Shown: piece by piece, positions 1-64,000 of the stretch
How the letters are laid out: each line of letters opens with the position of its first letter
Position numbering within the stretch: the stretch's first letter is position 1
Assembly (NCBI RefSeq): GCF_019977735.1
Contig: NZ_AP025018.1
Coordinates: forward strand, 6,204,580-6,268,579
Direction: 5' to 3'
Length of the DNA stretch: 64,000 bases
Source: Calothrix sp. PCC 7716
GTDB taxonomy: Bacteria; Cyanobacteriota; Cyanobacteriia; Cyanobacteriales; Nostocaceae
The notes under the pieces: generated by a model
Database searches by the model: none
What the model saw: the letters and a program-made list of their open reading frames with translations, nothing else
What the model was told of the DNA's origin: nothing
Translations under genes and position numbers: made by a program

Positions 1-406
1 AAATACCATATATCCTATCAAATATATACTTTAGCTTCTTTTGTCCTGATGTCATCGGTTCCTTGATACCAAAAAAACTTGAACAATTAACACCAGAATA
101 CATCCACATTCGCGCAAAGTCATCATATCCAACGGCATCAATACCGATGAAGTATGGTTTCTCGTAATCTGGGTGTATGTAAAAACGTATGTGTATAAGA
201 ATAGTACTGCACTGGCACTGGATACTTCTTCCTGGAAAGTGTATCGCGATGTGTATCGAATCCAGGTAACTTTTCCTTAATGTATACGATTCTTCCATAT
301 CCGGCGCCAAATCAATTCGTGTTTCAGGGAATTCGAGCTTGAGTAGGTTCGCTACTATACCTACCTTGGAAGTAAATTCTGGGCTATCTAAATGCTGCAC
401 TGCCAA
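1..406 (-). CDS. Hypothetical protein, 3' end outside the window
   Basis: An uninterrupted minus-strand frame of about 135 codons runs off the left edge, so the C-terminus is missing. An in-frame TGA lies directly upstream of TTG at 406; GTG at 400 is an alternative start and no strong ribosome binding site is visible. The visible product is soluble, with no signal peptide or membrane segment, and has motifs such as LLKLEFPETRIDL and YFIGIDAVGYDDF. I do not recognise the family. It could also be the tail of a longer decayed gene, because a short frame starting with ATG lies just upstream in another phase. A GGCGCC site lies inside. Confidence 0.4.
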   Translation of the reverse strand, partial: MAVQHLDSPEFTSKVGIVANLLKLEFPETRIDLAPDMEESYTLRKSYLDSIHIAIHFPGRSIQCQCSTILIHIRFYIHPDYEKPYFIGIDAVGYDDFARMWMYSGVNCSSFFGIKEPMTSGQKKLKYIFDRIYGI

Positions 407-605
407 TCATTAAATGATATTTTATCTCAATTAGCTTAACACACCTTTCAGTATACTCATATCACGCTTCGATACAACCAGATTATGAATTCCCGTAGGT
501 TGGTGTCGAGGAACGAGACCCAACACAACCCAACACAATCCATATAAACTAACTACTTTGTCATTTGCCCCTGACAATTATTGAAAAATAATATTGATAA
601 CTCTT

Positions 606-630
606 GATTTTAATGATAATCTTATCGTAA
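606..630 (+). promoter_or_regulatory. Fur-box-like operator upstream of the PepSY gene
   Basis: The stretch contains AATGATAATCTTATC, close to the classical Fur operator core AATGATAATCATTATC. It sits about 75-100 bp before the PepSY gene start. Iron-responsive repression is inferred from the match and from the iron-uptake context. Confidence 0.55.
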
Positions 631-704
631 GTTATATATAAGCTCTTCTAATCTAGCTACCGAGTTTCGATTACTTTAACTTTTAGCTGTAAGAAAATTT
701 GCTC

Positions 705-1784
705 ATGACACACAAGAATTTGATGCTGCAGCGTTATTTAGGGATTTTAGTAGCTTTGCTGCTAGCTGTTTTGGGTTTAACCGGCAGCATATTAGTTTTC
801 TATAAAGGAATAGACGATATTTTTTATCCAGCAACTTCTATTAATACGGGTGAACCAATTTCTTTGGAGCGAGTTGCAGGTGTAGTCAAGCAGAATTACC
901 CAGACAGCAAATTGTTATCTATTTCTTTAAAAAGTCAACCTATCGACGTTGTTGTTCGTTCAGATAAAGATAAATCAAACCAGTTTACAGATGTATATGT
1001 AAATCCTTATACCGCTCAGATTGTCTCTGCAACTAGAAGTAATGCGAGTATTAGAGGAGTGATTAATCAAATTCACACTAGTTTCCTTGCTGGAGAACCG
1101 GGTCATATATTTGTTGGTATTTGCGGGTTACTATTGATAGCGCGCGCAATTGGTGGATTAATCATTTTTCCTGGTTGGAAAAAGTTATCTACGGGTTTTA
1201 AAATTAGATGGAAGGCGCCTTCGCATTTAATTACTTATGACTTCCATAAAATAATTGGTATTACTGCCGTAGTGTTTTTGATTATGTCGGGTATAACTGG
1301 CGCCATATTAGTCTTCGATAAACAAGCAAGAGTTTTAGGATATGCCTTTTCTGCTATTAGGCAACCAGTAGAACTTGTTTCTGTAGTTCAAAAAGATACT
1401 CAAATACCGACTTTAGATGATTTCTTAAATACAGCAGAAACAGTATTACCTGGAGGAGAGACTACTTTTATTTATCCTGCCATTGACTCGAAGGCGCCTG
1501 TGCGGATACGTAAAAAGTTATCTAAAGACGTTAATCCTAATGGTAGCAGTTACATATATTTAAATCAATATAGCGGTGAAGTACTGGAAGTAAAGAATAT
1601 TAAATATGCACCTGGGGTGGAAAAATTCTTAGCTTGGATGTATCCAATTCATACTGGTGAATTTTTTGGGGCGCCAATGCGGTTCATATATATAATTTTA
1701 GGACTGGCGCCTGTCGTGTTGTTTATTACGGGATTTGTGATTTTTTGGAGTAAAACCCACGGCGCAATGGCTAGAAAAGCTTAG
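705..1784 (+). CDS. PepSY-associated TM protein (iron-uptake-linked)
   Basis: Integral inner-membrane protein of the PepSY_TM family, found with siderophore and heme uptake genes; some members act as ferric-siderophore reductases. About 359 aa. Hydrophobic segments lie near the N-terminus (YLGILVALLLAVLGLTGSIL), around residues 135-155 and 180-205, and near the C-terminus (FIYIILGLAPVVLFITGF), which is the usual four-helix layout with two periplasmic PepSY-like regions between. ATG at 705 is chosen over an in-frame TTG at 699. A Fur-like box lies upstream, and no partner gene follows within 380 bp. The reductase role here is inference; family membership is fairly secure from topology and motifs such as HTSFLAGEPGH and WMYPIHTGEFFG. 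Confidence 0.82.
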   Translation: MTHKNLMLQRYLGILVALLLAVLGLTGSILVFYKGIDDIFYPATSINTGEPISLERVAGVVKQNYPDSKLLSISLKSQPIDVVVRSDKDKSNQFTDVYVNPYTAQIVSATRSNASIRGVINQIHTSFLAGEPGHIFVGICGLLLIARAIGGLIIFPGWKKLSTGFKIRWKAPSHLITYDFHKIIGITAVVFLIMSGITGAILVFDKQARVLGYAFSAIRQPVELVSVVQKDTQIPTLDDFLNTAETVLPGGETTFIYPAIDSKAPVRIRKKLSKDVNPNGSSYIYLNQYSGEVLEVKNIKYAPGVEKFLAWMYPIHTGEFFGAPMRFIYIILGLAPVVLFITGFVIFWSKTHGAMARKA

Positions 1785-1890
1785 AATATATGATACTAGG
1801 TGAAATGCCTTGATTGGCGCCAGCAGTTCTCAATTTATACCTATGTTTACAAGGCTGTTAATATAGTTCTAGAAGTGGATTATATATATG

Positions 1891-2046
1891 TTAGTTATGA
1901 AGCGCAAAAAACCTTACTTGAATCACTTTTCTACTATGTAAACATTGACTTGGTGTAATACCATGCTTTTGCTTGAAAGCTACAGCAAAGTGTCCTAAGT
2001 GAGAATACCCAACCAAGTTCGCAACTTCGGCAACAGTACCATTATT
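1891..2046 (-). pseudogene. AraC-family regulator, C-terminal HTH remnant
   Basis: Translation of the minus strand gives GTVAEVANLVGYSHLGHFAV followed by AFKQKHGITPSQ, the second helix-turn-helix of a PchR-like AraC protein. It closely matches EVANAVGYSHLGYFAKSFKD in the intact regulator at 15778-16803. Only about 50 codons remain before a stop, and the upstream frame is closed. It is a leftover of a further siderophore regulator copy and cannot be functional alone. Confidence 0.8.
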
Positions 2047-2091
2047 TTAGGGTTTTTATTCTCAAATTATCGCCCAAAGTGTTAGCTCAAA

Positions 2092-7353: not shown

Positions 7354-7524
7354 AAACACCCGTCGGTTTGCAAGTTTGTCCGCTATCTCCATGTGCATAA
7401 AGCTTTGGTGCATCTTCTCTTCTCTTCTCTTTCTTCGTGTCCTTTGTGTCTACCCTGCGGGAAATCCTCCGGATTATGTGGTTTATCTCTTTAACGATTT
7501 AATTTTTTAGTGTGAGTTGAAGTT

Positions 7525-9867
7525 ATGAATTTACGTCTTATTCTCATTGGCTTAGTTTTCTTACCTTTTTGGGTTGTTCCCGCAGCACTTGCAGAATCTC
7601 AATCTGAAGATGAAATTCCGCGACTTAGTGATGTCAATTTACCATCTACAAAAGCAGAGTTACTAACGCAGCAACCAGAAAAATGTCCTCCCAAAAATAC
7701 AACAAAACCAGAAGATATACCTAAAGAGTGTAAAGAAGAAGAAAAAGATGAAGCTGATATTGAAATTACAGTGACGGGAACGCGAACACCTCGTTCTGTG
7801 GAAGAGTCACCAGGAACTATCACTGTAATAGATGAAGATGATATCAACGAAAGATTAATCCAAAATTTGGATGATTTAATTCGTTATGAACCTGGTGTTT
7901 CAACCAGTGGAGACCCACGTCGTTACGGTTTTCAAGACTTTAATATTCGTGGTATTGATGGAAATCGGGTTTTACTTCAAATTGATGGTGTTCGTTTACC
8001 TGATTCATTTAGATTTGGTAGTACACAATTAGGTAGAGATTATGTAGACCCAGAATCTTTTAAACGAGTCGAAATTATTCGCGGTTCTGCTTCTACTCTT
8101 TATGGTAGCGATGCGATTGGTGGTGTTGTCACTTTTTTAACAAAAGACCCTGCAGATTATCTCAAAGAATCAGGAGATGATGCTTTTTTTAGCAATAAGT
8201 TTGCTTATGATAGTGTCAATAGGGGAATTGCCAACACTGCAACCGTAGCAGGAAGGTTAGGTGATGTTGAAGGGTTACTAAGTTACACTCGACGTGATGG
8301 TTATGAACCACAAGTTAATAGTAACGCCACACCCAACCCTCAAGTCACGGACTCGAATAACTGGTTAGGGAAATTAGTATTTAACCTGGGAGAGTTTCAT
8401 CAACTCAAATTTACAGGTGAGTTCTTTAACCGCACTAGTGATACTAATGTTTTATCTTCTATTGGCATTGCGAATAACGCGCGCACCGATAGTTTACGCT
8501 CGACAGATGAAAGTCAACGCGATAGATATAGTCTCAACTACGAATATAATAACCCTGATGGAAAAGGTTTTTTCCAAGTTTTACGCAGTCAAATTTACTA
8601 TCAAGACTCCCGAAGTAACGAAGAATCTAACGAAATACGTCGTACAGGCGCCCCACTTGCTACAGGAATTGCTAACAGGCGCCGTTTTCGTTCTTCCACA
8701 TACCAAAATAATACCTTTGGTGGCGATATTCAACTAGAAAGTAACTTTTTTACAGGTGATATTAGTCACAGGCTAGTATATGGTACTGAAATCTCAAGTA
8801 CCAGAACATCTCGCTTGCGTGATGGCTTTCAAGAGAATATCGCGGCACCGGGGAATGTTGGTTTTATTACTAAACAAGTGGGTCCAGACTTATTCCCAGC
8901 AAAAGATATTGCCGACACTGACAGTAGCCGTTTTGGTATTTACTTGCAAAACGAAATCACTTGGGGCAATCTTTCATTAATCCCTGGTATTCGTTATGAT
9001 TCCTATAGCTTGACTCCTGACCCAGACGATATATATAGAAGAAGCTCTAATAATTTTCCAACTACAAAATTCTCAGATTCAGCGATTTCGCCCAAACTTG
9101 GCTTAGTCTATAATATCACTCCCGAAATTACAGGCTTTGCTCAATATGCTAGAGGTTTTCGGGCGCCGACTGCAGAAGACATCAACCCAGGTTTTACAAA
9201 CCCAGGTATATATCGTGCAATTCCTAACCCAGATTTAAAGGCAGAAAGCAGTGATAATTTTGAATTAGGCATTCGCGGTTCTTTTCCTGCTGGCAAATTC
9301 AGTCTTAGCGGCTTTTATAATACCTATAACAACTTTATCGACACCTTCGGTAGAGTTACTCCCACACCAGGATTAGCCGTTGGTTCATTCCAAACAGTCA
9401 ACCGTGGAGAAGTACGCATATACGGTGTAGAAGCAAAAGGTGAAGTACCATTAGGTTCTGGTTTGAGTTTGATTGCAAGTACAAGTTACAGTGTTGGTGA
9501 TGACTTGGAAAGTAATCGACCTTTGGCTTCTATTGACCCCTTTAAATTGGTCGCTGGACTACGATATCGGGCGCCAGAAAACCGTTGGGGAACAGAATTA
9601 ATTACTACATATGCAGGTAGTCCAAGAGTACCAAAAACTCAAGATGTTCCCAACCCCTTTGTACCTGATAGCTATTTCACCCTTGATTTAATTGGTTATT
9701 ACAATATCAACGAAAATGCTACATTCAATATTGGTGTATTTAACTTATTGAATGAACAGTATTGGCGCCGGGGTGATGTTCGTGGTCTGAGCGCTACTAA
9801 CCCAATTATTGATTTATTCGCTCAACCAGGTATTAACGTTACAGCTAGTGTAAGTGTGAGATTTTGA
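7525..9867 (+). CDS. TonB-dependent heme/hemoprotein receptor
   Basis: 780-aa outer-membrane receptor. It has a signal peptide (about residues 1-23), a TonB-box-like EITVTGTRTPR near residue 85, a plug with FNIRGIDGNRVLLQIDGVRL and EIIRGSASTLYGSDAIGGVV, and a 22-strand barrel ending in SVRF. It belongs to the hemoglobin/transferrin/lactoferrin receptor group: it has the FRAP box (GFRAPTAEDINPG) and the NPDL box (IPNPDLKAESSDNFELG). Unlike classical HemR/HutA, there is no histidine between FRAP and NPDL. It differs from the AMIN siderophore receptors further right. Upstream is a broken permease/ATPase remnant and downstream an SBP lipoprotein, so this is a heme-type uptake locus. Confidence 0.88.
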   Translation: MNLRLILIGLVFLPFWVVPAALAESQSEDEIPRLSDVNLPSTKAELLTQQPEKCPPKNTTKPEDIPKECKEEEKDEADIEITVTGTRTPRSVEESPGTITVIDEDDINERLIQNLDDLIRYEPGVSTSGDPRRYGFQDFNIRGIDGNRVLLQIDGVRLPDSFRFGSTQLGRDYVDPESFKRVEIIRGSASTLYGSDAIGGVVTFLTKDPADYLKESGDDAFFSNKFAYDSVNRGIANTATVAGRLGDVEGLLSYTRRDGYEPQVNSNATPNPQVTDSNNWLGKLVFNLGEFHQLKFTGEFFNRTSDTNVLSSIGIANNARTDSLRSTDESQRDRYSLNYEYNNPDGKGFFQVLRSQIYYQDSRSNEESNEIRRTGAPLATGIANRRRFRSSTYQNNTFGGDIQLESNFFTGDISHRLVYGTEISSTRTSRLRDGFQENIAAPGNVGFITKQVGPDLFPAKDIADTDSSRFGIYLQNEITWGNLSLIPGIRYDSYSLTPDPDDIYRRSSNNFPTTKFSDSAISPKLGLVYNITPEITGFAQYARGFRAPTAEDINPGFTNPGIYRAIPNPDLKAESSDNFELGIRGSFPAGKFSLSGFYNTYNNFIDTFGRVTPTPGLAVGSFQTVNRGEVRIYGVEAKGEVPLGSGLSLIASTSYSVGDDLESNRPLASIDPFKLVAGLRYRAPENRWGTELITTYAGSPRVPKTQDVPNPFVPDSYFTLDLIGYYNINENATFNIGVFNLLNEQYWRRGDVRGLSATNPIIDLFAQPGINVTASVSVRF

Positions 9868-9980
9868 TCCCCCCTAACCCCCCTTAATAAGGGGGGAACA
9901 AGAAAGGGAGTTTTAAGCCATAATTAACAGAGGAATTTATCCTATTCTTAGCCCCCCTTATTAAGGGGGGTTGGGGGGAT
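9867..9980. repeat. Large inverted repeat, MITE-like or terminator
   Basis: Two about 29-bp arms (ATCCCCCCTAACCCCCCTTA at the left, its complement at the right) flank about 55 bp, and each arm also contains the smaller palindrome CCCCCTTAATAAGGGGG. The left arm begins at the receptor stop codon. Elements of this form are dispersed in cyanobacterial genomes; here it may also terminate receptor transcription. Confidence 0.8.
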
Positions 9981-10012
9981 TAAATGATTACTACTAACAC
10001 AACTATAAAATT

Positions 10013-10906
10013 ATGAAACACCGTTTGATACTATCTATTATTGGCATCTTATTAACTCTAAATATAGCTGCCTGCCAAAACACAACTACTCCGCAAGCTA
10101 AAGAAACAACGGCGCCAACCCAAACACCAGTCACATCAGCAAAAAGAGTAGTAGCTCTCACTTCCCTATCTGCCGATATTATTTATCAGTTAGATAAATC
10201 TAAATTGGTAGGAATAACAGGAAGTAGCTTGCTGAATAAAAATCCCAACTTCAAAGATATCACGCGCGTGAGCGAGGGACAAACGCCACCTAACCTAGAG
10301 AAAATTGTAGCACTCAAACCAGATTTAGTAATTGGAGCAGAAGGATTTTCTAATCAGACTATAGAAAAAGTAAAACAACTAGGAATACCAACACTTCTTA
10401 CCAGAGTCAATGACTTTGAAGCATTAGAAGCACTGACAAAAAATCTTGCTCAAACTATAAACGCTGACCCTCAACCATTATTGAAGCGCTACCAAACATT
10501 TGTAGATACCAATATTAAACCTAATGCCTCTACATTAGTTTTAGCAAGCCGTCAACCAATACTATCACCTAACAAATCTAGTTGGGCAGGTAACTTACTT
10601 GAAAAATTTAATGTAAAAAATGTAACTGCTGACTTACAGGGTAAAAGTCCAATCAGGGGTTATATAACCTTATCTCCAGAAAAGATATTAGAAACCAATC
10701 CAAATACTATCATTCTCGTCACCCCTCCCCAAGGCGGTTCACAACAATCTATTTTGGAATCATTTAAGCAAGAATCTTTTTGGGGCAAACTAGAAGCCAC
10801 AAAAAATAATCGAGTTTACGTATTTGACTATTATGGCTTTGTCAATGCAGGTACTATAGATGCAATTGAAAAAGCCTGCAAACAATTAAAAGATGTATTG
10901 TCTTGA
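10013..10906 (+). CDS. ABC substrate-binding lipoprotein, heme/iron type
   Basis: 297-aa periplasmic-binding protein of the BtuF/FecB/HmuT fold (Peripla_BP_2). Lipobox NIAAC near residue 20 predicts a lipoprotein. Conserved features are RVVALTSLSADIIYQL, NLEKIVALKPDLVIG and the C-terminal FWGKLEATKNNRVYVFDYYG. It differs from the longer siderophore SBPs of this window: it lacks the HxxGxTCIP start motif. Position directly after the heme receptor suggests it hands heme or iron to an inner-membrane importer; the matching permease/ATPase is only a remnant at 6985. Substrate is inferred. Confidence 0.82.
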   Translation: MKHRLILSIIGILLTLNIAACQNTTTPQAKETTAPTQTPVTSAKRVVALTSLSADIIYQLDKSKLVGITGSSLLNKNPNFKDITRVSEGQTPPNLEKIVALKPDLVIGAEGFSNQTIEKVKQLGIPTLLTRVNDFEALEALTKNLAQTINADPQPLLKRYQTFVDTNIKPNASTLVLASRQPILSPNKSSWAGNLLEKFNVKNVTADLQGKSPIRGYITLSPEKILETNPNTIILVTPPQGGSQQSILESFKQESFWGKLEATKNNRVYVFDYYGFVNAGTIDAIEKACKQLKDVLS

Positions 10907-10961
10907 GCTAGTTTTAATGAGATAATTTCCTATAGGATTCTTTTTTGACTTTTGAACATAA

Positions 10962-11018
10962 CGTAAGGTGGGCACTGCCCACCATATCTAGGTTTTGGTG
11001 GGCACTGCCCACCTTACG
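10962..11018. repeat. Dispersed palindromic repeat (GTGGGCACTGCCCAC), double unit
   Basis: Two GGTGGGCACTGCCCACC palindromes, bounded by CGTAAG and CTTACG, form a larger inverted repeat. A single unit recurs at 14391-14417. Such elements can fold in RNA; no coding content. Confidence 0.8.
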
Positions 11019-11093
11019 GCTACAATGATTCGCAACTAGCTCAAGCACCAACTTGATGGTATTGTAAAAAATAAAACCAGTCAAGGAGATGGT

Positions 11094-11753
11094 TTGAAGG
11101 CTTTACTTGTCACCAATGTACTCCTAGTTTTGTTCCTATTCTGCCCAAGAGTTGCCGCGTCAAAACTAGCAGAGGTAGAAAACTTACAACCTTTACAATC
11201 AGAATTGGGGAAGCGAGATTTAAAACTGATTGATACTCTATTTGCTATCGCTTGCAAAAACTCTTCTATTGTCAGAGAAGCAAGAAAAGCTACGGGAATC
11301 CGCGCGTTTGAAGATGTTGTCAGTGTGGAACTATCACCTTCGCGCGGACTCATAAATTATAAGGGGTCTGATGGTTCATCTTCTGAACAAGAGCAAAGTT
11401 TTTCAATCTCTGTGACACTCGACCCAATTAAACTTATCACTGCAATTGATAAAATATCTGTGTTAGATACTCGGTATCATGAGACGATGCGGCAAAAGCG
11501 TCTTGAAGTCGTCCAGCGCTACATTGCTTATCTGCAAGCACAGCAACTAAGTATAATCGCAGCCCATAAAATGCAAGAATTTAATAATGGCGCCAACGCG
11601 ACTGCAAAAAAACTTCTCTCAAATTCTGAATATATCACTGTGACAACCGAAATGCTCAACACTCACTCGCGTGAAAGACTTGCATTAGAGGAACTCGCTG
11701 CCACCATCGGACTATCACCAGAACAAACACTGGTTATCTTAAAGCAGCACTAG
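11094..11753 (+). CDS. Exported hypothetical protein, helical
   Basis: 219 aa starting at TTG, preceded by AAGGAG at 5 nt spacing; an ATG three codons earlier is followed by a stop. A signal peptide is clear (ALLVTNVLLVLFLFCPRVAA). The mature part is mostly helical (residues about 130-215: YLQAQQLSIIAAHKMQEFNN and following) and faintly resembles the helical part of TolC-like proteins, but it is too short and lacks barrel strands. It lies after the heme-uptake genes with the same orientation. Function unknown; an accessory periplasmic role in uptake is only a guess. Confidence 0.6.
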   Translation: MKALLVTNVLLVLFLFCPRVAASKLAEVENLQPLQSELGKRDLKLIDTLFAIACKNSSIVREARKATGIRAFEDVVSVELSPSRGLINYKGSDGSSSEQEQSFSISVTLDPIKLITAIDKISVLDTRYHETMRQKRLEVVQRYIAYLQAQQLSIIAAHKMQEFNNGANATAKKLLSNSEYITVTTEMLNTHSRERLALEELAATIGLSPEQTLVILKQH

Positions 11754-11929
11754 TTAGGCGCCCATAACCGCACCATCGAGATTGTGACATTAAAGCATAA
11801 CATTAGTAAATCAATCTCTATGTCAACTATAATTAACAATAATACATGATTATTTACATTGTTGACAAAAGTTGTTATAGTTCTTTACATAAATTAACAT
11901 TTAACCACTTTAAACCTGGAGTACTGATC

Positions 11930-12109
11930 ATGCAAGACGCATCAAAAGGAAAAGTATCTGTGCCAGAGAGTTACAACGCTTGGAGTTGGGGTTTTACACC
12001 TGGAGCGGAAATTTGGAACGGGCGCCTAGCTATGTTAGGTTTTTTAGCAGCAGTTCTAATTGAAGTGTCTTCTGGAAAAGGCTTTCTCCACTTCTGGGGT
12101 ATTCTGTAA
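11930..12109 (+). CDS. High-light-inducible (Hli) CAB-like protein
   Basis: 59-aa single-helix chlorophyll-binding stress protein of the thylakoid membrane. The diagnostic helix is [19 protein letters not shown] with the chlorophyll-ligand pattern ExxNGRxAM, followed by [11 protein letters not shown]. The N-terminal arm ends in [11 protein letters not shown] at 11930 is chosen because the protein then matches the family and its paralog at 50455; a GGAG site precedes it, and the longer frame from 11846 has an atypical extension. Hli proteins protect photosystems under high light and also iron stress, which fits the neighbourhood. A strong terminator follows at 12199. Confidence 0.95.
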
Positions 12110-12198
12110 TTCTTTAAATTTTATTATTGCTGCATAGATATTTATGGAGTGCAGCTTTTTCTAGGACATTTAAGTAAGGAAAACGATATAATTGTTAC

Positions 12199-12236
12199 CT
12201 CTGTACTGCAATTTAGTACAGAGATTTTTATTTTTT
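12199..12236 (+). terminator. Rho-independent terminator after hli
   Basis: Perfect 9-bp stem CTCTGTACT/AGTACAGAG with a 7-nt loop followed by ATTTTTATTTTTT. It is about 90 nt after the hli stop and seems to end that transcript before the xisH region. Confidence 0.85.
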
Positions 12237-12307
12237 GAGGTTATCTAGTCAAATACATAGATGACAAAGTTTAAAATGTAAGAGCCGTTAACCGCCATTT
12301 TTTTAGG

Positions 12308-12725
12308 ATGCCAGCAAAAGATATCTACCACGAAGCCGTAAAGCAAGCATTGACCAAGGACGGCTGGAAAATTTTGGGAGAAGGTTATACTCTAGAATAT
12401 GGCGGCGATAATCTTTACGCTGATATTGCAGCAGAAAAACCTATTGCAGCCGAGCGAGAGAACCAAAGGATTATTGTCGAAGTTAAAAGCTTTCTGGGAC
12501 GTTCGTTTATGAACGATGAGCGAAATGGCAATAGGGCAATACATTATCTATCGCGATATTGTTGAAGCTAAAGCTTTGAATTTTTAATTGTATTTAGCAG
12601 TAACAATAGGTGTTTACAATACTGGCTTCCAAAAACAACTCGCTCGTCTTATAGTTGAACGAAATCAAGTAAATTTGTTGATTTTTGACCCTAAACAAGA
12701 GGTGTTGTTAGAATGGATAAATTAA
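12308..12725 (+). pseudogene. xisH: xisH, fdxN-element excision controlling factor, broken
   Basis: The start MPAKDIYHEAVKQALTKDGW, the AAEKPIAAERENQRIIVEVK core and the C-terminus (YLAVTIGVYNTGFQKQLARL, then VERNQVNLLIFDPKQEVLLE) are plainly XisH, a nuclease-fold protein (Asp/Glu-Lys core EVKSFLG) tied to heterocyst DNA excision. The frame shifts near 12515-12530 (GQYIIYRDIVEAKALNF is in another phase) and a TAA follows at about 12583. The end overlaps the xisI start, the normal arrangement. Product is therefore truncated at about 85 aa. No fdxN element is visible; many xisHI pairs lie outside such elements. Confidence 0.85.
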
Positions 12726-13054
12726 ATGCATATCGAGACTTAATAAAAAGAGTATTAAACTCATATCACGAGTTAAATATTCGAGCTAGCGATACAAAAA
12801 ATGAGAGCGTGTTAGTATTTGACTCAGAACATGACCATTATTTGCTGCTTATAATGGGTTGGCAAGACTCGGAGCGTATTAAGAACGTAATGATTCATGT
12901 ACATTTGAAAGGTGAAAAAATTTGGATTGAGGAAGATTGGACAGAGGATGGAGTTGCAACTGATTTATTACAAGCAGGTGTACCACACGATGATATTGTT
13001 TTGGCGTTTCATCCTCCCCATTTGCGGCAGTATACAGAGTTCGCTTCTGCTTAA
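12713..13054 (+). CDS. xisI: XisI, fdxN-element excision controlling factor
   Basis: 113-aa intact XisI-family protein: MDKLNAYRDLIKRVLNSYHE, DSEHDHYLLLIMGWQDSERI, then KIWIEEDWTEDGVATDLLQA and DIVLAFHPPHLRQYT, all family hallmarks. XisI works with XisH in programmed excision of the fdxN element in heterocysts; elsewhere the pair is of unknown use. ATG at 12713 lies inside the xisH 3' end. Because its xisH is broken, XisI is now unpartnered here. The 3' 110 bp recurs as a remnant at 14511-14631. Confidence 0.92.
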   Translation: MDKLNAYRDLIKRVLNSYHELNIRASDTKNESVLVFDSEHDHYLLLIMGWQDSERIKNVMIHVHLKGEKIWIEEDWTEDGVATDLLQAGVPHDDIVLAFHPPHLRQYTEFASA

Positions 13055-13234
13055 AACTCGCGCGTTTCACCAAGCAGCACATTAAAATATTATTGAAAAC
13101 TCTGTTTACGTACCCGACTCATGACAAAAATCTAAATATTACCCGTTTGCAGTATACGATGAATATCGGCGCCTGAAGAGGAGTAAGATTTAGCCAAGGT
13201 TTATGGAAATTATGGAAAAAATAAGAGCTTTTAA

Positions 13235-14283
13235 TTAATAATCTTCATTTTGTGTTTCAATTGTTACTGTATCTAACTCTGCTTCTAACTGCTCGATAGT
13301 TGGTAAACTTGCTTTCAATTGTTCTGGTAAAGCATCTCGTGACTGATAAGTTGAAACTCCAATAGGTTGATTTATTGCTCGCAGTGCATATTCTGCTATT
13401 GTCTTATTTTTCGCTTTACACAAAATTATGCCTATTGTAGGTTTATCATCTGGGTGACGCAGCAATCATCTACTACTGCAACATAAAAACTCATCTTGCC
13501 AGAAAATTCAGGTTTAAATTCTTCAACTTTCAGGTCGATTACTACATAACATCGTAATTTTAGATGATAAAATAGTGAATCAATGTAAAAGTCTTGGTCG
13601 CCAACTTCCAAATGATACTGGCTACCAACAAAAGCAAAACCTGTGCCTAACTCTAGTAAAAAATCACGAATCCTGTTTATTAAAGCGGTTTCTAGGTCAC
13701 GTTCTTGTGTTTCTTTGCTTAAAGAGAGAAAATCAAAATTATAAGGGTCTTTTAATAACTGTTGTGCTAATTCTGACTGTGGTTGAGGTAAAGTTTTGTC
13801 AAAGTAAGTAGTTGCCTTACCTTGACGATGGTATAGTTCGCTTTCTATCTGATGAACTAATACATTACGACTCCAAACGTATTGAATCGTTTGTTCAGCA
13901 TACCATAAGCGCTGTTCTGGCTGCTTCACCTTTTCAATTAAAGCAATATTGTGATACCAAGTAATTTGTGCAAGAGGTGCTTGCACAATTTGTTCGTCTG
14001 GGTATGATAAAGCGAAAGCTCTCATATACTTAAGATTACGCGCGGAAAATCCTTTCATATCGGGAAAAGCTTTTCGTAAGTCAGACGCAAGTTGTTCGAT
14101 GACTTTTGCACCCCACCCTTGTTGTTGCTGTCGCATCAAAATTTCATTGCCAATTTGCCAGTAAAGTAACACCAGTTCGCAGTTAACAGATAATGCTGCT
14201 CTAACTTGAGCGTTGCGAATACGCTCTTTTAGAGAGTTGAAAAAATCATCGCAACCATCTATTTGTAGTAGTTTTTCTGTCAT
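13235..14283 (-). pseudogene. YhcG/DUF1016-type PDDEXK nuclease, single frameshift
   Basis: Two frames belong to one gene. 13432-14283 has the N-terminal DUF1016 part (LLYWQIGNEILMRQQQQGWG, GFSARNLKYMRAFALSY) and most of the nuclease domain (FYIDSLFYHLKLRCYVVIDL, KVEEFKPEFSGKMSFYVAVV). 13235-13465 has the tail LLRHPDDKPTIGIILCKAKN. Loss of one base after VVDD switches phase, so the catalytic domain ends early. The family is linked to DNA cleavage and recombination of stalled or foreign DNA. With the tail restored it would be about 350 aa, the normal length. Residual activity is unlikely but not excluded. Confidence 0.85.
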
Positions 14284-14390
14284 GTAGCGACCCTGTTGAT
14301 TTTTTTAATTGTAAATATGCTACTATTATTCTTTCTATCACATTCTTTGATACAAAAATTCTAAATCGTTTTTGAAAAAATCTAAGCATT

Positions 14391-14417
14391 CGTAGGGTGG
14401 GCAGTGCCCACCTTACG
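14391..14417. repeat. Dispersed palindromic repeat, single unit
   Basis: CGTAGGGTGGGCAGTGCCCA and its mirror match the double unit at 10962-11018 with a G/C change at the centre. Confidence 0.75.
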
Positions 14418-14510
14418 TAAAAATCGAACAGGAATTCTATAGTTACCCTAAACCATTGTAGAGACGCGCGCTGAATCGCTTCGACTGACATAAAAATTTT
14501 CCTAAAAAAC

Positions 14511-14631
14511 TTAGGTGTACCGCGCGACGATATTGTGTTGGCGTTTCATCCTCCTCATCTGTAGCAGTATACAAAGTTCGCTTCTGCCTAAAACTCGCGC
14601 GTTCCACCAAACTGCACATTAAAATATTATT
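14511..14631 (+). pseudogene. xisI 3'-end remnant
   Basis: GVPRDDIVLAFHPPHL followed by a stop, then downstream DNA (AACTCGCGCGTT, AATATTATT), match 12978-13095, the end of the intact xisI and its flank. Only the last twenty codons survive. It shows that a second xisHI copy existed here or that the segment was duplicated. Confidence 0.8.
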
Positions 14632-14702
14632 ATTTACACACAAACATACTTAAGGATAATTGTATTATTAAGGTAGTGTTATCGGATAGTGGGAAATAGA
14701 TG

Positions 14703-15728
14703 ATGGATATACTCACGGCAGAAGAATATTGGCAACTACGGGAAGAAGCTATAGAAACAAATGGTAAGCGATTAGTACATCATGATGGATTTGATGAAAT
14801 TAGGCAGGGTGAACATGAATTGTTTAGAGATTTAACTCATTATATTGAGCTACGTCCGGGATTTGAAATGGTGATAGGAGAAAATACATATCATTCTGAC
14901 TTTAATTATTGTAGCCCTCACTATGACCAGCCTTATCCATTAATTTCTAAGTTTCATATCTCCGGAAGCTTTAGGACAATTACACCAGGAATAAAAGAAA
15001 TTTCTGATGATTATATTGAGCAAGTAGGAAAAAGCTATTTATATTATTTACCGGATTTAGAAGAGATTCATCAGTATTCAACTAACGAGCATTTATTAGT
15101 TATATGTATATTTATTGATATAGATGTATTTAAAAATTTTAGTCAAGGTTTTGAATTACTACCTGCTCCACTGCAAGCATTAATTAGTAAAAATTCTCCA
15201 CCCAGGTTTCATTCTACTGTTGGGGAGATAACGCCTGCGATGTTTGCAATTTTGCAGCAAATTCTCAAACCCCCCTATCAAGGGATAATGAAGCGGATGT
15301 ACCTGGAAAGTAAAGTCTTAGAACTGTTAGCACTGCAATTAGATCAGTTTTTGCATCGTGAACAAGCTATTTGTAGAGTTGCGAACTTAAGACCTGTGGA
15401 TATTGAGAAAGTCTATCACGCCAGAGATATTTTAATTAGTCAAGTCGAGAATCCACCATCATTGTTTGATTTAACTGATTTAGTGGGTTTAGGCGCCCGT
15501 AAACTGCGATACTGTTTTCGAGAGGTATTTGGTACGACTGTATTTGGCTACTTGCATGACTATCGTATGCAGCAAGCAAAAATCATGCTAGCAGGAACCA
15601 AGATGCAGGTTGCAGAAGTAGCGAACGCTGTTGGATATGCACATTTAGGCTATTTTGCCAAGTCTTTTAAAGACAAATTTGGAATTTCGCCAAAAGAATT
15701 TCAATTTGGGAAAAAGACACTAAAGTGA
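14703..15728 (+). CDS. PchR-like AraC-family regulator (twin 1)
   Basis: 341 aa. The N-terminal 230 residues form the ligand-sensing half found in PchR-like siderophore regulators; the C-terminal 100 residues carry two helix-turn-helix motifs (SLFDLTDLVGLGARKLRYCF and QVAEVANAVGYAHLGYFAKS, ending FKDKFGISPKEF). Such proteins activate receptor genes when the ferric siderophore is bound. It is a tandem twin of 15778-16803: the C-terminal halves are almost identical while the first 130 residues differ more. ATG at 14703 aligns exactly with the twin's start; ATG at 14700 is also possible. The receptor at 16893 is the likely target, now disrupted. Confidence 0.9.
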   Translation: MDILTAEEYWQLREEAIETNGKRLVHHDGFDEIRQGEHELFRDLTHYIELRPGFEMVIGENTYHSDFNYCSPHYDQPYPLISKFHISGSFRTITPGIKEISDDYIEQVGKSYLYYLPDLEEIHQYSTNEHLLVICIFIDIDVFKNFSQGFELLPAPLQALISKNSPPRFHSTVGEITPAMFAILQQILKPPYQGIMKRMYLESKVLELLALQLDQFLHREQAICRVANLRPVDIEKVYHARDILISQVENPPSLFDLTDLVGLGARKLRYCFREVFGTTVFGYLHDYRMQQAKIMLAGTKMQVAEVANAVGYAHLGYFAKSFKDKFGISPKEFQFGKKTLK

Positions 15729-15777
15729 CAATAATTGTATCATTAAAGTAGTGTTATCGGATAGTGGGAAATAGATA

Positions 15778-16803
15778 ATGGAAATACTTACGGCAGAAGA
15801 ATATTGCCTACTGCTGGAAGAAGCGATAGAAACAAATGGTAAGCTATTATTACATCATGATGAATTTGATGAAATTTGGCAATGTGAAAATAAATTTTCT
15901 AAAGATTTAGTTCATTATATAGAGTTACGTCCGGGATTTGCAATGTTTATATCAGAGCATACACATCATTCCGACTTAAATTATTGGAGTCCTCATCACG
16001 AACAGCCTTATCCATTAATATCTAAGTTTCATATCTCTGGAAGCTATCGGACAATTACACCAGGAATAAAAGAAATTCCTGATGATTATATTGAGCAAGT
16101 AGGAAAAAGCTATTTATTCTATTTACCTGATTTAGAAGAAATTCATCAGCTTTCAGCTAACGAATGTTATTTAGGTGTATCTATATCTATTGATATCGAC
16201 ATATTTAAAAATTTTACTAAAGATTTTGAATCGCTACCTGCTCCACTGCAAGCATTAATCAGTAAAAATTCTCCACCCAGGTTTCATTATACTGTTGGGG
16301 AGATTACGCCTGCGATGTTTGCGATTTTGCAGCAAATTCTCAAACCACCTTACCAGGGGATAATGAAGCGGATGTACTTGGAAAGCAAAGTCTTAGAATT
16401 GTTAGCACTGCAATTAGATCAGTTTGTGCATCGTGAACAAGCTATCTGTAGAGTTGCGAGCCTAAGACCCGTGGATATTGAGAAAGTGTATCACGCCAGA
16501 GATATTTTAATTAGTCAAGTTGAAAATCCACCATCACTGTTTGATTTAGCCGATTTAGTGGGTTTAGGCGCCCGTAAACTGCGATACTGTTTTCGAGAGG
16601 TATTTGGTACGACTGTATTTGGCTACTTACACGACTACCGTATGGAGCAAGCAAAAATCATGCTAGCTGGAACCAAGATGCAGGTTGCGGAAGTAGCAAA
16701 CGCTGTTGGCTATTCACATTTAGGCTATTTTGCCAAGTCTTTTAAAGACAAATTTGGAATTTCGCCAAAAGAATTTCAATTTGGGAAAAAGACACTAAAG
16801 TGA
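15778..16803 (+). CDS. PchR-like AraC-family regulator (twin 2)
   Basis: 341-aa twin of the preceding gene, 49 bp downstream, with the same upstream motif (GTTATCGGATAGTGGGAAAT) before the ATG, so the promoter or leader was duplicated with the gene. HTH motifs: SLFDLADLVGLGARKLRYCF and QVAEVANAVGYSHLGYFAKS. Sequence differences concentrate in the sensing half (for example ECYLGVSISIDIDIFKN against EHLLVICIFIDIDVFKN), which could mean different ligands with shared DNA sites. It precedes the IS-split receptor by 90 bp in the same direction. Confidence 0.9.
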   Translation: MEILTAEEYCLLLEEAIETNGKLLLHHDEFDEIWQCENKFSKDLVHYIELRPGFAMFISEHTHHSDLNYWSPHHEQPYPLISKFHISGSYRTITPGIKEIPDDYIEQVGKSYLFYLPDLEEIHQLSANECYLGVSISIDIDIFKNFTKDFESLPAPLQALISKNSPPRFHYTVGEITPAMFAILQQILKPPYQGIMKRMYLESKVLELLALQLDQFVHREQAICRVASLRPVDIEKVYHARDILISQVENPPSLFDLADLVGLGARKLRYCFREVFGTTVFGYLHDYRMEQAKIMLAGTKMQVAEVANAVGYSHLGYFAKSFKDKFGISPKEFQFGKKTLK

Positions 16804-16892
16804 TAAAAAATGGCTCTTTTATAGATAGACGAGATTTTGCAAACCTTGTAGCCTATGTTTAGTGAGGTATTTGAGAATATTTATCTATAGGT

Positions 16893-17329
16893 GTGAGTTT
16901 TATGCGAAAACCCTTAGCGGCTTTTGTGCGCTTGGATTGGCAATTATGGCTAATGGCTCTGATGTTGGTTGCATCTCAACCAGCTTGGGCGGATAATAAG
17001 GAATTACAATCGCAAAGGTACGGTTCAAATATAAATGATAATTACTTTCATAAATCATCTAAAAAGATTCCTCAACTAAGTGAGGTTGAACTTTTTTATA
17101 AGAGCGCTTCGGTACTTGTGCAGGCGCCGCAAGTTGTGCAAATAATGTCTGTAAGAGCAAATCCTACTTATAAAGGTGTGGAGTTAATTTTAGAGACAAC
17201 TCAAGGGAATCAACTGCAAGTAGCCAATCGCAGTACAGGTAATAACTTTATAGCTGATATAACTGGCGCCCAACTGCGTAATAAAAGTGGTGATGCTTTT
17301 ACGTTTAGTTCTCAAAAACCGCTTGCAGG
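16893..17329 (+). pseudogene. AMIN-TonB siderophore receptor, 5' part, cut by IS4-type element
   Basis: Starts at GTG 16893 or ATG 16902, with signal peptide (WLMALMLVASQPAWA), a linker with KKIPQLSEVELFYKSASVLV and the AMIN domain (VRANPTYKGVELILETTQGN, FSSQKPLAG). At 17330 the insertion sequence begins. On the far side (19068) the gene resumes in the barrel, so the rest of AMIN, TonB box, plug and first strands are missing. The insertion came with a deletion or with recombination between IS copies. Not functional. Confidence 0.9.
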
Positions 17330-17371
17330 CTGACTGCCTGACAGATTAATGTGGAAGGCAGTGAAATCGGG

Positions 17372-17782
17372 AGCATCCAGTGAAAGGCAGAAACACCATT
17401 ACAACAGGCGCCCCTTAAACACTTTAATTTTAAACATGGTTAAGTACAGTACTAACTACAGATACTACAAATTTAGTACAATACTCCTTTAATCTCTACT
17501 TACTCAATGAAGAATTATTCTCAATATTTCTCAAAATATTAACTAAAAAATCATACTAACAAAAACTATATCTAACAAAAGCGGAGGTTACAGGCTTTAG
17601 CCTGTAACGATGCCACGGCGCCTGAATTAAAACACAAGAATGAGTTAATACTGTAGAATCACAATACAGCATCATAACTGGTTTGCAATATTTTTATGTT
17701 TGATAAACACCAGTGTTTAATAGCGCTAGTGTTTAGCCAAGGGCACCTGTTGTAATGGTGTTTCTGCCTTTCACTGGATGCT
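17372..17782. repeat. 37-bp perfect inverted repeat nested in the IS
   Basis: The arm 17372-17408 (AGCATCCAGTGAAAGGCAGA and following) is the exact complement of 17746-17782. The arms flank 337 bp without a gene; inside is a smaller palindrome ACAGGCTTTAGCCTGT. The unit looks like a MITE or foldback element inserted within the IS. Confidence 0.85.
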
Positions 17783-17791
17783 GCCTTGAAA

Positions 17792-20291: not shown

Positions 20292-20301
20292 GTAGTTCTT
20301 C

Positions 20302-33993: not shown

Positions 33994-33997
33994 CGCC

Positions 33998-46013: not shown

Positions 46014-46067
46014 ATATTAATAATTTATATTTTTAGCTGTTGTTGTCGGCGCCGAGGTAGAAAATTG

Positions 46068-46166: not shown

Positions 46167-46176
46167 AAACAGACTA

Positions 46177-51665: not shown

Positions 51666-53342
51666 GAGCAAGTGGAAGTACTCAAAGGACCCGCCTCAGT
51701 TTTGTTTGGGGCTGTTGAACCAGGTGGAATCGTCAACGTTACTACCAAGCAACCCCTGAGTACACCTTATTATAAACTTGGATTAGAGGTAGGAAATTAT
51801 GGGTTTTATCAGCCCAGCATTGATGTATCTGGACCTTTGACTACAGATAAAAACCTGCTTTATCGTTTTATCGCTAGTTATCAAGCCTCAGATAGTTTTG
51901 TCGATTTTGCTAATTCGGAGCTAATTACAATTGCTCCCTCAATCACTTGGAAATTAGGCGATCGCACAACCTTAAATCTTTATTATGAGTATATTCGCTC
52001 GGAACAAAATCCTTATAAGGCAGACGTTCCCGTTTTCAGTGATAATACGTTTGGCTTGCCCCGAAATCGCTATGTCGGCTATCCCGATCTTGATTTTGCG
52101 ATTAAAGATGTCCACAAATTAGGTTATGCCCTAAACCACCAATTCAATGACAATTGGCAGCTTCGCAATAATATTGCTGTAGTTACTAGCGCTGCGAAAG
52201 ATGCTTATACTTACTTCTCAGAACTAGTAGATGATCGTTTTCTCGTTGCTAGTTCGATTGATCGACGCGAATATTCTATCGATAACTATTTTGGACAAAT
52301 TGACTTGCTGGGTAAGTTCAAGACAGGAGCGGTTGCACACCAGCTTTTGATAGGTTTTGAAGCCAATCGCAGAGTTAGTAACTTTGAGCTTCGTACTAGT
52401 CAAGGTCCAGGCGATTTAGATCTCCTTAACCCGAACTACGATACTTCAAGTTACCAATTCCTACCAATCTCTCGCTTCGCTTATTATGAGCCGATTCAAT
52501 CTTACGGGATCTACCTGCAAGACCAAATCACGTTACTAAATAACCTGAAACTTCTGATTGGTGGGCGCTTTGATTGGGTTGAACGAACATTTGATATTGT
52601 TGGTGAGCCTGCTCAAGAACAAAGTGATAGTGCTTTTAGCCCCAGAATTGGGTTGGTGTATCAGCCTAGTGACATAGTTTCTCTCTATGCCAGCTATAGT
52701 AGGTCATTTACTCCTACATTTGGATTTAATCCGGATGGTAGAGCATTCAAACCGACCAAAGGAACACAGTACGAAGCTGGTATCAAAGCTGACTTTTTAG
52801 AGGGAAGGCTTTCGACAACATTAGCCGCATATCAAATCACGAAGTCGAATGTGACAACGCCCGACCCTAACAATCCTAATTTTTCTATACAGGTAGGGGA
52901 ACAAGAGAGTCGAGGTATTGAGTTGGATATTGCCGGCGAGATCTTGCCAGGGTTGAAGGTGATAGCATCCTATGCCCATACCAATGCAGAAGTTACTGAA
53001 GATAACACTGCGACTGTAGGTAATCGATTAAATAATGTCCCAGAGAATCAAGCTAGCCTCTGGACAACCTACCAAATACAGAAAGGCGATTTGCAGGGCT
53101 TAGGATTTGGCTTTGGGTTGTTTTATGTTGGTGATCGCCAAGGTGATTTAGATAATTCGTTTATACTACCGAGCTATTTACGTACCGATGCGGCGATTTA
53201 TTATCGTAGAAATGGTTTTAACGCAGCTATTAATATTCGTAATTTGTTCGACAAGACCTACTATGAATATTCTTACGGGAGATTCTATAACCAATTGGGC
53301 GATCCCTTTACAATAATTGTCTCAGTCAGTTGGGAGTTTTAA
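51663..53342 (+). pseudogene. TonB-dependent siderophore receptor, 5'-truncated
   Basis: Homology starts abruptly at VEQVEVLKGPASVLFGAVEP in the plug and runs through the whole barrel (LKLLIGGRFDWVERTF, FSPRIGLVYQPSDIVSLYAS, YLRTDAAIYYRRNGFNAAIN) to SVSWEF. Signal peptide, AMIN domain, TonB box and first plug half are lost, so it cannot be exported. It contains the only HIP1 octamer (GCGATCGC, 51957) I saw in the window and no GGCGCC, unlike neighbours. The SBP gene follows 66 bp later and is intact. Confidence 0.9.
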
Positions 53343-62643: not shown

Positions 62644-62859
62644 ATGATGTTTACCTTACCCGGCGCCGCTGACATTAGCAAAAATATATTTTGTTCAAGA
62701 AAGCTTAAGAATCAGCGGACTGGCTGTTTAAGCGATGATTACGCCGAAGAATTGAGAGGTTTGATAGGTGAGCGTTGGAATGAAGTCTGGAGTGTTGTTA
62801 AAGCAAGACACAGGAAAAAGCAAGAATTGTCTGAAGTTGAGAGTGCAAAGCAGTGTTAA
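62644..62859 (+). CDS. Small hypothetical protein
   Basis: 71 aa: MMFTLPGAADISKNIFCSRK, CLSDDYAEELRGLIGERWNE, VWSVVKARHRKKQELSEVES. The second half is helical and charged. There is a GGAG site (TAGGAG) about 16 nt upstream of ATG. Not recognised. Could be a real small gene or a remnant; a GGCGCC lies in it. Confidence 0.4.
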   Translation: MMFTLPGAADISKNIFCSRKLKNQRTGCLSDDYAEELRGLIGERWNEVWSVVKARHRKKQELSEVESAKQC

Positions 62860-63111
62860 GGATTCGTTAAGTAGTATTAACGTATAACTTAATATTTTAT
62901 TAACCATTAGGAAACTTATTCTATTGCTATCTACTGGCAACAAGTATAATATTTGTTCAAATCCACTTACACTCAATGAAAGCAGCACATGTAACGGTTA
63001 TCCAGATAATCCGTTACGTGCTTTTGTTTGTGGCAGTTTGTGTACACGTCATTTTTTTAGCCAAGATACAAAGAACTGTAAATCTATAAACTAGCTACTT
63101 GAAAACTTATA

Positions 63112-63147
63112 TTAGATGACTTATTTAAATACTTAGTTCACAGTTAA
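63112..63147 (+). pseudogene. SBP 3'-end remnant
   Basis: Encodes LDDLFKYLVHS and a stop, the conserved end of the siderophore SBPs of this window (compare LDDLFKYLVNHS at 54340). Only the last eleven codons remain, upstream of another exporter-fold ABC gene. Confidence 0.75.
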
Positions 63148-63154
63148 TTTCTGA

Positions 63155-63222
63155 TCTTGTGGAGCGGGCATCCTTGCCCGCCTCCTTTAAGTTGAAACAG
63201 GCAGGGATGCCTGTTCCACAAG
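63155..63222. repeat. Dispersed repeat, full copy (CTTGTGGAGCGGGCATCCTT)
   Basis: Inverted ends CTTGTGGAGCGGGCATCC and GGATGCCTGTTCCACAAG around a short centre; same family as 49020-49126. Confidence 0.8.
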
Positions 63223-63367
63223 AGAAAATGATTTATTTTTGGAAAATTTTAATAAAATGACCCTTTTGGGATAAAAAAATGCCGTTTTTGGATAGACTAC
63301 GGTGCCCAAAAAATATTATGCTTAGTGTATTTGACTTACAGATACTATAAATAACACTCTTTCACCA

Positions 63368-64000
63368 ATGACAGCAAAACCCCACCCACTAGGACGCTTG
63401 CTCAATTATGGGCGCCAATACCGTCAGCAAATATGGCAAGCAAGTGCTTTTTCTATCATCAATACTATTTTAGATTTGGCGCCGCCTTGGTTAGTAGGTG
63501 TTGCTGTTGATATTTTAGTGCAACAACAGAATTCTAGTATAGCTAAGTTCGGTGTAAAAGATGTTGTTCAACAGTTTTTAGTGCTTTCGATTGTCACAGT
63601 GATTATTTGGGTTTTTGAATCACTTTCCCAATATATATATGATAGGCTATGGCGTAATTTAGCACAAAATATTCAGCATAATTTGCGATTAGAAGCTTAC
63701 AATCATTTGCAAGAACTAGAGTTAGCTTATTTTGAGGATAGTAGTACAGGTGGTTTAATGTCTATTCTCAATGATGATATTAACCAGCTAGAGGATTTTC
63801 TCAATGGTGGCGCCAATGAGATTATACAGATTACCACATCGCTAATTATTCTCATCGGCGGCGCCTTGTTGATGTTACCTCTCAGCATTACCATAGCAGC
63901 AATGTTACCAATGCCGTTTATTGTGTGGGGTTCATTGATTTACCAAAATCGTTTAGAATCACGTTATGCTGATGTGCGAGACAAAGTAGGTAACTTGAGC
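63368..64000 (+). CDS. ABC exporter-fold half-transporter, 5' part (runs off window)
   Basis: 211 codons visible from ATG 63368, no stop before the right edge. MTAKPHPLGRLLNYGRQYRQ, then transmembrane segments (IINTILDLAPPWLVGVAVDI, FLVLSIVTVIIWVFESLSQY) and the coupling-helix stretch LAYFEDSSTGGLMSILNDDI, NQLEDFLNGG typical of type IV (exporter-fold) ABC proteins of the MsbA/multidrug group. The ATPase domain should follow outside the window. Not closely similar to the pair at 33998-37464. Four GGCGCC in 0.6 kb. Confidence 0.9.
   Translation, partial: MTAKPHPLGRLLNYGRQYRQQIWQASAFSIINTILDLAPPWLVGVAVDILVQQQNSSIAKFGVKDVVQQFLVLSIVTVIIWVFESLSQYIYDRLWRNLAQNIQHNLRLEAYNHLQELELAYFEDSSTGGLMSILNDDINQLEDFLNGGANEIIQITTSLIILIGGALLMLPLSITIAAMLPMPFIVWGSLIYQNRLESRYADVRDKVGNLS

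Follow-up and report, generated by a model that had tools for sequence, protein, structure and literature searches.

GGCGCC is the highly iterated palindrome (HIP) of one cyanobacterial genus, the Calothrix PCC 7103/Dulcicalothrix desertica group, in which it has displaced the octamer HIP1 (GCGATCGC). We analyzed this word in a 64,000-nucleotide stretch of Calothrix sp. PCC 7716 (the window; C1:6204580-6268579 of genome G000, which comprises 12,367,066 bases in 10 contigs), in the rest of that genome and in its relatives. The substitution itself is already known: GGCGCC was reported to replace HIP1 in Calothrix PCC 7103 and, on the basis of 19 kb of sequence, in Calothrix D253 (Elhai 2015, PMC4390886). 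New here is that the swap is common to every sequenced member of the genus that we examined, and that it is accompanied by a solitary methyltransferase gene whose predicted target includes the word. In text searches of the open-licence literature, no publication after that one was found to describe GGCGCC as iterated in cyanobacteria.

The window (G+C content, 38.1%) contains 108 GGCGCC sites, compared to a mean of 4.1 and a maximum of 9 in 100 dinucleotide-preserving shuffles. The first-pass annotation of this sequence, which had estimated about 110 sites by eye and about 4 by chance, was close on both counts. The copies, of 6 bp each and with no strand assigned, span positions 303 to 63865 and start at 303, 1214, 1299, 1493, 1670, 1706, 1816, 2248, 2523, 2739, 2755, 4144, 4478, 4494, 4677, 4788, 5205, 5439, 6507, 7045, 7111, 8647, 8678, 9162, 9570, 9764, 10111, 11589, 11757, 12021, 13168, 15492, 16567, 17123, 17265, 17407, 17617, 18364, 20247, 21819, 21986, 22072, 22991, 23113, 23561, 23600, 23804, 25785, 28796, 28832, 29483, 30440, 30940, 31330, 32255, 32886, 33005, 33302, 33420, 33485, 33679, 33992, 34329, 35017, 35066, 35805, 36985, 37937, 38863, 40088, 40650, 42358, 42660, 44287, 44365, 46048, 46847, 47692, 48226, 48595, 48806, 49799, 50538, 50577, 54247, 54610, 55902, 56058, 56151, 56307, 56448, 57293, 57570, 58032, 58382, 59570, 59759, 60259, 60308, 60430, 61001, 61085, 61141, 62662, 63411, 63478, 63809 and 63860. 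Their spacing is approximately random (coefficient of variation, 1.08).

The whole of G000 (12.37 Mb) contains 20,380 GGCGCC and 7 CCGCGG, the reversed control word, and each of 20 further 20-kb stretches, including some from the small contigs C2 and C4, had between 0.95 and 2.8 GGCGCC sites/kb. The excess is thus neither near expectation nor confined to the window, the two outcomes that the first-pass annotation had named as refuting its observation. Together with the window, these stretches (11 of them picked around methyltransferase genes) form a 464-kb sample, in which GGCGCC ranked first of the 64 palindromic hexamers, with 804 occurrences observed and 35 expected under a dinucleotide model (22.7x); CGCGCG (6.6x) and GCGCGC (3.2x) followed. 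Disregarding those made up of A and T only leaves 56 palindromic hexamers, of which 11 reached at least 1x, 19 lay between 0.5x and 1x, 2 between 0.25x and 0.5x, and 24 below 0.25x. The strongly rare palindromes included TGCGCA (1 observed, 102 expected) and GACGTC (1 observed, 37 expected), and the tetramers GATC and GGCC stood at 0.11x and 0.08x. The claim that the sites lie in coding and noncoding DNA also held: in the sampled stretches, 606 (1.83/kb) were located in open reading frames (ORFs) of at least 150 aa, where they used all three frames (309, 112, and 185 sites), and 197 (1.49/kb) were outside such ORFs. GGCGCC therefore qualifies as a HIP in the usage of Elhai 2015, being a GC-rich palindrome that leads the palindromic hexamers of the 464-kb sample and is abundant throughout the genome. 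The second over-represented palindrome, CGCGCG, was found at 32 window sites (for example, 1141, 49255, and 57240; shuffle mean, 3.0). In sequence sampled from the other six genomes of the genus, it stood at 4.5 to 8.8x, and TGCGCA occurred 0 to 2 times.

HIP1 is at background in G000, with 66 copies (5.3/Mb) compared to 64 for its reversed control. Since the octamer is not enriched, this genome does not belong to the HIP1 class, and the loss of HIP1 coincides with the rise of GGCGCC. The only copy in the window (51958..51965, no strand assigned; 0.27 expected by shuffling) had been correctly seen as a single one in the first-pass annotation, which placed it one base off, at 51957. Both words were counted in 217 genomes of the family, 7 of them from this genus (g1) and 210 from 55 other genera. 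Besides G000, the genus is represented by Dulcicalothrix desertica PCC 7102 (G060), Calothrix PCC 7103 (G061), Calothrix HK-06 (NIES-2101; G062), Calothrix NIES-4105 (G063), and the metagenome-assembled genomes C42_A2020_038 (G064) and FI2-JRJ7 (G065). All seven carry 7,475 to 20,380 GGCGCC (1,150 to 1,711/Mb) and only 31 to 163 HIP1 (3.6 to 22.6/Mb). The density of GGCGCC is lowest in G064, the genome with the longest branch, and samples of the six other members displayed a 14.7- to 22.7-fold excess. None of the 210 other genomes exceeded 1,053 GGCGCC, or 111/Mb (G084, in which the control word numbered 1,270), and 207 of them had at least 100 HIP1/Mb, those below being G182 (9/Mb), G194 (50/Mb), and G191 (82/Mb). 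The swap is therefore seen in 7/7 genus genomes and 0/210 relatives, which bears out the initial proposal that GGCGCC is this lineage's own iterated palindrome in place of HIP1.

PF00145 matches (METHYLTRANSFERASE) numbered 9 to 17 per genome across the genus. Clustering of methyltransferases at 50% identity revealed three clusters present in 7/7 genus genomes, one of which, cluster A, was only fragmentary in HK-06. Cluster C contains one orthologue per genome, forming a supported clade; its member in G000 (G000:C1:10950497-10951501) is 335 aa long, the PCC 7103 orthologue lies at G061:C7:8004457-8005404, and the other six proteins are 83 to 92% identical to that of G000. The gene, predicted to encode a 5-methylcytosine (m5C) methyltransferase, is under purifying selection, with ratios of nonsynonymous to synonymous substitution (dN/dS) of 0.10 to 0.17 in the seven pairs listed. 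The m5C catalytic motifs GGPPCQ, ENV, QxRxR, and GNAVPV are found in 6/7 orthologues, and HK-06 has the variants SGPPCQ and ANAVPV. The recognition domain is nearly invariant among the seven genus proteins, a homologue adjoining a HindVP-type endonuclease (L167), and a protein of G284, a genome of another family in the order; L167 was the sole representative of GRCGYC specificity in this comparison. The genus enzymes also have a conserved R located 11 residues ahead of the T in the PSPT motif, matching the description in PMC2413257. The core enzyme is thus probably a BsaHI-type GRCGYC m5C methyltransferase without an endonuclease, and hence not GGCGCC-specific. A methyltransferase gene as expected for a HIP is present in 7/7 genomes, its target being assigned by homology only. 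The suggested link of the word to an orphan methyltransferase accordingly gained a solitary candidate in every genome, and the part that stipulated GGCGCC specificity gave way to a probable GRCGYC target.

A RuBisCO-like gene adjoins the core methyltransferase gene in 6/7 genus genomes (one was scanned and the rest were recognized by similarity); the neighbours differ in HK-06. Homologues of cluster C were detected in 59/210 other family genomes (E up to 1e-30), some of them distant or broken. In 17/23 fetched loci outside the genus, the neighbour belongs to one ORF family of up to 377 aa, fragmentary in some cases. This endonuclease beside the homologues in other genera is of the HindVP type (PF09519), and the one that was scanned has three R.BsaHI motifs. 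We searched for PF09519 in 55 of the 59 carriers, leaving out G019, G024, G055, and G185, whose genes are partial or distant, and found it, sometimes fragmentary, in 39/55. It was detected in 0/7 genus genomes, so that the HindVP-type partner is missing there, and in none of four tested genomes of G284's genus. Because PF09519 is absent from 7/7 genomes, the orthologues form a single clade, and the RuBisCO-like neighbour is common to most of them, the predicted core enzyme is regarded as solitary, not part of a full restriction-modification (R-M) system in the genus, and it appears to be vertically inherited. A second cluster C copy in G000 (L016, G000:C2:307409-310972) is split into two ORFs and adjoins an ORF matching DpdA, a DNA deazapurine-modification protein.

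Outside the genus, the median GGCGCC density was 0.71/Mb in the 39 carriers with PF09519 and 8.51/Mb in the 16 without it (P 0.0004), a comparison that is uncorrected for relatedness and includes four genomes from one genus (g26). The lower number of sites alongside the endonuclease fits GGCGCC as a target of the pair. We also considered avoidance in carriers as a proof of specificity. Carriers had 0.98 and noncarriers 5.07 GGCGCC/Mb (P 0.001; 50 compared to 153 genomes, with 7 genomes having partial genes dropped and G024 and G055, whose matches are distant, taken as noncarriers), but the control word was also lower (3.37 compared to 9.55) and a within-genus permutation gave a P of 0.11; hence, this comparison was not relied on, and that between carriers with and without PF09519 is the better of the two.

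A second methyltransferase appears to have been lost from the genus. A tree of 109 methyltransferases (270 aa or longer) contained a clade, the L189 group, that was represented in 9/9 sampled HIP1-bearing genomes (6 picked as HIP1-rich; one, G194, low in HIP1) but in neither G284 nor any of the 7 genus genomes. When one protein of this group was searched against the whole family (E up to 1e-50), matches, some of them distant (for example, G096 at 9e-52), were obtained in 206/210 genomes outside the genus and 0/7 within it. From the co-occurrence with HIP1 and the text of Elhai (2015), we infer that the L189 group is the CGATCG methyltransferase. In Calothrix PCC 7103, two GRCGYC methyltransferases and a damaged CGATCG methyltransferase have been described (PMC4390886).

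Syntenic stretches of all seven genus genomes were aligned; G063 and G064 stand apart from the other five, and G000 and G060 are closest. The turnover set comprised 72,785 hexamer positions in conserved stretches aligned in at least 5 genomes. GGCGCC was kept in 0.800 of 5,660 site comparisons (21 pairs, reusing the same sites), compared to 0.527 expected from the flanks, and between G000 and the other six genomes its conservation ranked 1 of 1,902 hexamer classes. The excess was found in all three frames and outside ORFs (0.765 compared to 0.356, n = 68). Changes at positions 1, 2, 5, and 6 with the CpG kept amounted to 5.9% in GGCGCC, the smallest value of 116 classes, and 26.4% in other CpG hexamers. 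CpG transitions stood at 8.0% compared to 13.9%, the 11th lowest of 111 contexts, and all remaining central changes at 0.4% compared to 7.3% elsewhere. The C3-to-T change, which accounts for 394/604 single-base partners, was the least suppressed.

At the tips of the tree, GGCGCC showed 49 losses and 3 gains (P 1e-11), compared to 22,395 losses and 22,441 gains for other hexamers. The three gains are ordinary for an all-GC hexamer, as the other 63 total 99, or approximately 1.6 each. Among the sites, 57/165 were kept in all genomes present and 56/165 followed other patterns. None of 28 polarised near-sites turned into GGCGCC (77/181 sites in that set were unpolarised), although in a smaller, looser test 2/3 TG/CA near-sites gained CG, compared to 196/2,060 elsewhere. 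Given the tip losses and gains, creation of GGCGCC is hardly visible and the sites seem to be retained by site-specific constraint. Where one or more genomes had GGCGCC, the GGTGCC/GGCACC state made up 4 to 6% of the sites in each of five genomes, with higher shares in G065 (9%) and PCC 7103 (14%); these shares were no larger on longer branches (rank correlation, -0.34; n = 7). PCC 7103 had 20/145 readable sites in this state and the other six genomes had 47/843 (P 0.001), as if deamination were higher or removal weaker in that strain.

We favour a joint reading, to which we assign a probability of roughly 0.6. A BsaHI/HindVP-type GRCGYC R-M pair would have entered the ancestor of the genus; the endonuclease would have disappeared there, as would the CGATCG methyltransferase. 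The remaining, solitary enzyme is predicted to methylate the central cytosine (GG-mC-GCC), GGCGCC would have accumulated before the radiation of the genus, and a constraint specific to the sites would now hold them, most likely because the methylated site is selected for as a landmark on the chromosome that fills the role of HIP1. This role might, for example, be to mark a strand or the cell's own DNA during repair or DNA uptake. Selection for HIP1 is the subject of Xu et al. 2018, as cited in PMC6604393. Sites would be lost mainly when C3 turns into T, the change that deamination of methylcytosine at this position would cause, and the resulting GGTGCC/GGCACC states are seemingly removed over time. 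Because the swap is reciprocal across the genus and the sites are retained both in and out of genes, we favour the view that the methylated site has a role for which either word can serve.

Several observations weigh against this reading. Four genomes (G032, G079, G083, and G180) lack a CGATCG-like enzyme yet retain HIP1. The 16/55 carriers without PF09519 (a few with broken methyltransferases) reach at most 42.6 GGCGCC/Mb; without iterated GGCGCC in these genomes, a solitary enzyme is insufficient. Nor is a degenerate enzyme by itself an explanation, as the other GRCGYC words are depleted in the 464-kb sample (GGCGTC, 0.26x; GACGTC, 0.03x). C3 to T is at best a weak methylation footprint, and not a clean one, since its per-site rate lies below the mean of other CpG. 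With losses exceeding gains, the sites are out of balance and their pairwise conservation follows partly from the asymmetry alone, which, by sqrt(0.527) = 0.73, may account for most, not all, of the excess. Total tip losses approximately track branch length, except in PCC 7103 (12 compared to 2.9 expected), and multi-base differences in G064 (39/117 sites) may conceal GGTGCC states; removal of these states is therefore weakly supported. Finally, selection and site-protecting repair fit the data alike.

How the sites arose is a narrower question. We tentatively consider, at well under even odds, that the set of approximately 20,000 sites was built once, before the radiation, by a creation process that has since stopped, and that the set is now slowly eroding, chiefly through deamination of methylcytosine, while site-specific retention acts on it. 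If so, a genus can swap its iterated methylated landmark through methyltransferase exchange and keep the new one through speciation; this would suggest that iterated palindromes have a function and are not just a by-product of continuing mutation. An ongoing process is what a published model describes (PMC4390886): a mismatch repair ratchet directed by G-mC, with no selection on sites, in which mC following G steers repair to retain site-completing mutations until approximately 1 site/kb is reached. The ratchet predicts a density near 1/kb (1.15 to 1.71/kb observed) and a build-up of GGCGCC over other GRCGYC words, as seen, and it needs methylation of the central C, the position of GRCGYC methylated by M.BsaHI, whose methylation blocks HhaI at GGCGCC (PMC2413257). 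The looser near-site test also points in its direction. However, the ratchet acts via biased creation, and both the ordinary number of tip gains against 49 losses and the absence of conversions among the 28 polarised near-sites speak against it. With new sites this scarce, an ongoing ratchet is disfavoured, and we consider it a rather unlikely account, about one chance in four; it may have acted earlier, producing the sites prior to the split of the genus, and have ceased afterwards.

Very-short-patch-type repair is improbable. In Escherichia coli, Vsr acts in this way together with Dcm. Here, such repair would turn T:G mismatches in GGTGCC/GGCGCC into C:G, both making and preserving GGCGCC, in line with the site-specific preservation and with GGTGCC/GGCACC states that are mostly tip specific and do not build up with branch length. 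However, it should suppress C3 to T the most, the very change that is least suppressed, and should deplete the T words, which stand at 1.24x in G000 (464 kb) and 0.80 to 1.55x in the six others. Even less can be said for restriction escape, in which many palindromes are avoided through restriction and GGCGCC is merely unpunished: the 24/56 palindromes below 0.25x and the absence of PF09519 from the genus agree with it, but release from restriction gives expectation and not a 15- to 23-fold excess, which refutes it, and the endonuclease-less carriers outside the genus stay at or below 42.6 GGCGCC/Mb. That codon usage, GC-rich genes, or dinucleotide bias would suffice is next to impossible: although 309/584 Gly-Ala codon pairs in sampled ORFs are GGC-GCC, GGC (20) and GCC (41) are rare elsewhere in such pairs and predict few of them, 297 sites lie in the other two frames, the DNA outside ORFs has 1.49/kb, and the shuffles and the 22.7x excess over the dinucleotide model refute composition as a cause.

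These results bear on the reason for iterated palindromes in cyanobacteria. In a genus that includes cultured strains, the word and its candidate methyltransferase have been swapped in nature, so that word and role can be considered apart, and hypotheses of methylation, repair, and selection can be tested by deletion and by comparison with relatives; the turnover data bear on whether iterated sites are being made or merely kept.

We also compared counts of GGCGCC and the control word in a phylum sample of 386 genomes. G284 contains 9,489 GGCGCC compared to 2,450 control words, and its G+C content is approximately 7 points above that of its genus-mate G281 (loci L136-L140). An 84-kb sample of G284 had no HIP1, which G281 has at 142x. 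As in the Calothrix group, HIP1 is absent from the sample, GGCGCC is enriched, a BsaHI-like methyltransferase (55% identical) is present, and PF09519 is missing. However, its iterated GCGC word is looser (AGCGCC/GGCGCT, 5.8x; CGGCGCCG, 25x; GGCGCC, 3.8x), and we rejected it as the same swap. GGCGCT is not a GRCGYC site; therefore, another enzyme may act in G284. G420 was likewise rejected as a second GGCGCC lineage, as its 2,493 sites (control, 38) are ordinary at 49% G+C and HIP1 is kept. High counts accompanied by high controls were seen in G255 (14,895/9,970) and G232 (12,912/9,210), G262 (5.3 Mb, from another class) had 6,677 compared to 1,346, and G401 (283/2) and G477 (461/23) combined high ratios with low counts.

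Regarding other features of the window, 10 of its 39 ORFs of at least 150 aa were scanned. Five are TonB-dependent receptor-like, and the others include a periplasmic binding protein, an AraC-type regulator, an ABC transporter, and an MFS transporter; coordinates of scanned ORF regions are 7525-9867, 18999-20291, 38546-41131, 42321-44849, and 51672-53342. From these predicted products, the window is perhaps an iron-siderophore uptake region. A stretch of approximately 110 bp (approximately 46054-46170) has many dispersed copies in the genus genomes, approximately 78 to 89% identical, and only partial matches of approximately 40 to 55 bp within the fetched genome stretches. Several places in G000 and other genus genomes carry full or partial copies, 72 to 96% identical, of a segment of approximately 440 bp (33557-33997), which is perhaps a mobile-element remnant. 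Rfam gave no match in the 64-kb window.

Compared with known systems, the closest is the one described by Elhai for PCC 7103 and D253, which has the same word, genus, loss of HIP1, GRCGYC methyltransferase, and depletion of other GRCGYC words. It differs in scope, as it concerned one genome and 19 kb of D253, and exceptional iterated words were described there as sporadic and not arranged in clades (PMC4390886), whereas here the swap unites 7/7 genus genomes. The present analysis adds that the core methyltransferase is solitary in all seven genomes, and it adds the data on turnover of the sites. The HIP1 of most cyanobacteria (GCGATCGC) is, like GGCGCC, a GC-rich, methyltransferase-associated palindrome occurring genome-wide at approximately 1/kb; the two differ in word and length and in their association with a CGATCG-type and a GRCGYC-type m5C methyltransferase, respectively. 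Finally, the BsaHI and HindVP (GRCGYC) R-M systems share with the genus a methyltransferase with a nearly invariant recognition domain, whose homologues elsewhere adjoin PF09519, but in the genus the endonuclease is missing (0/7) and the target word is enriched rather than avoided.

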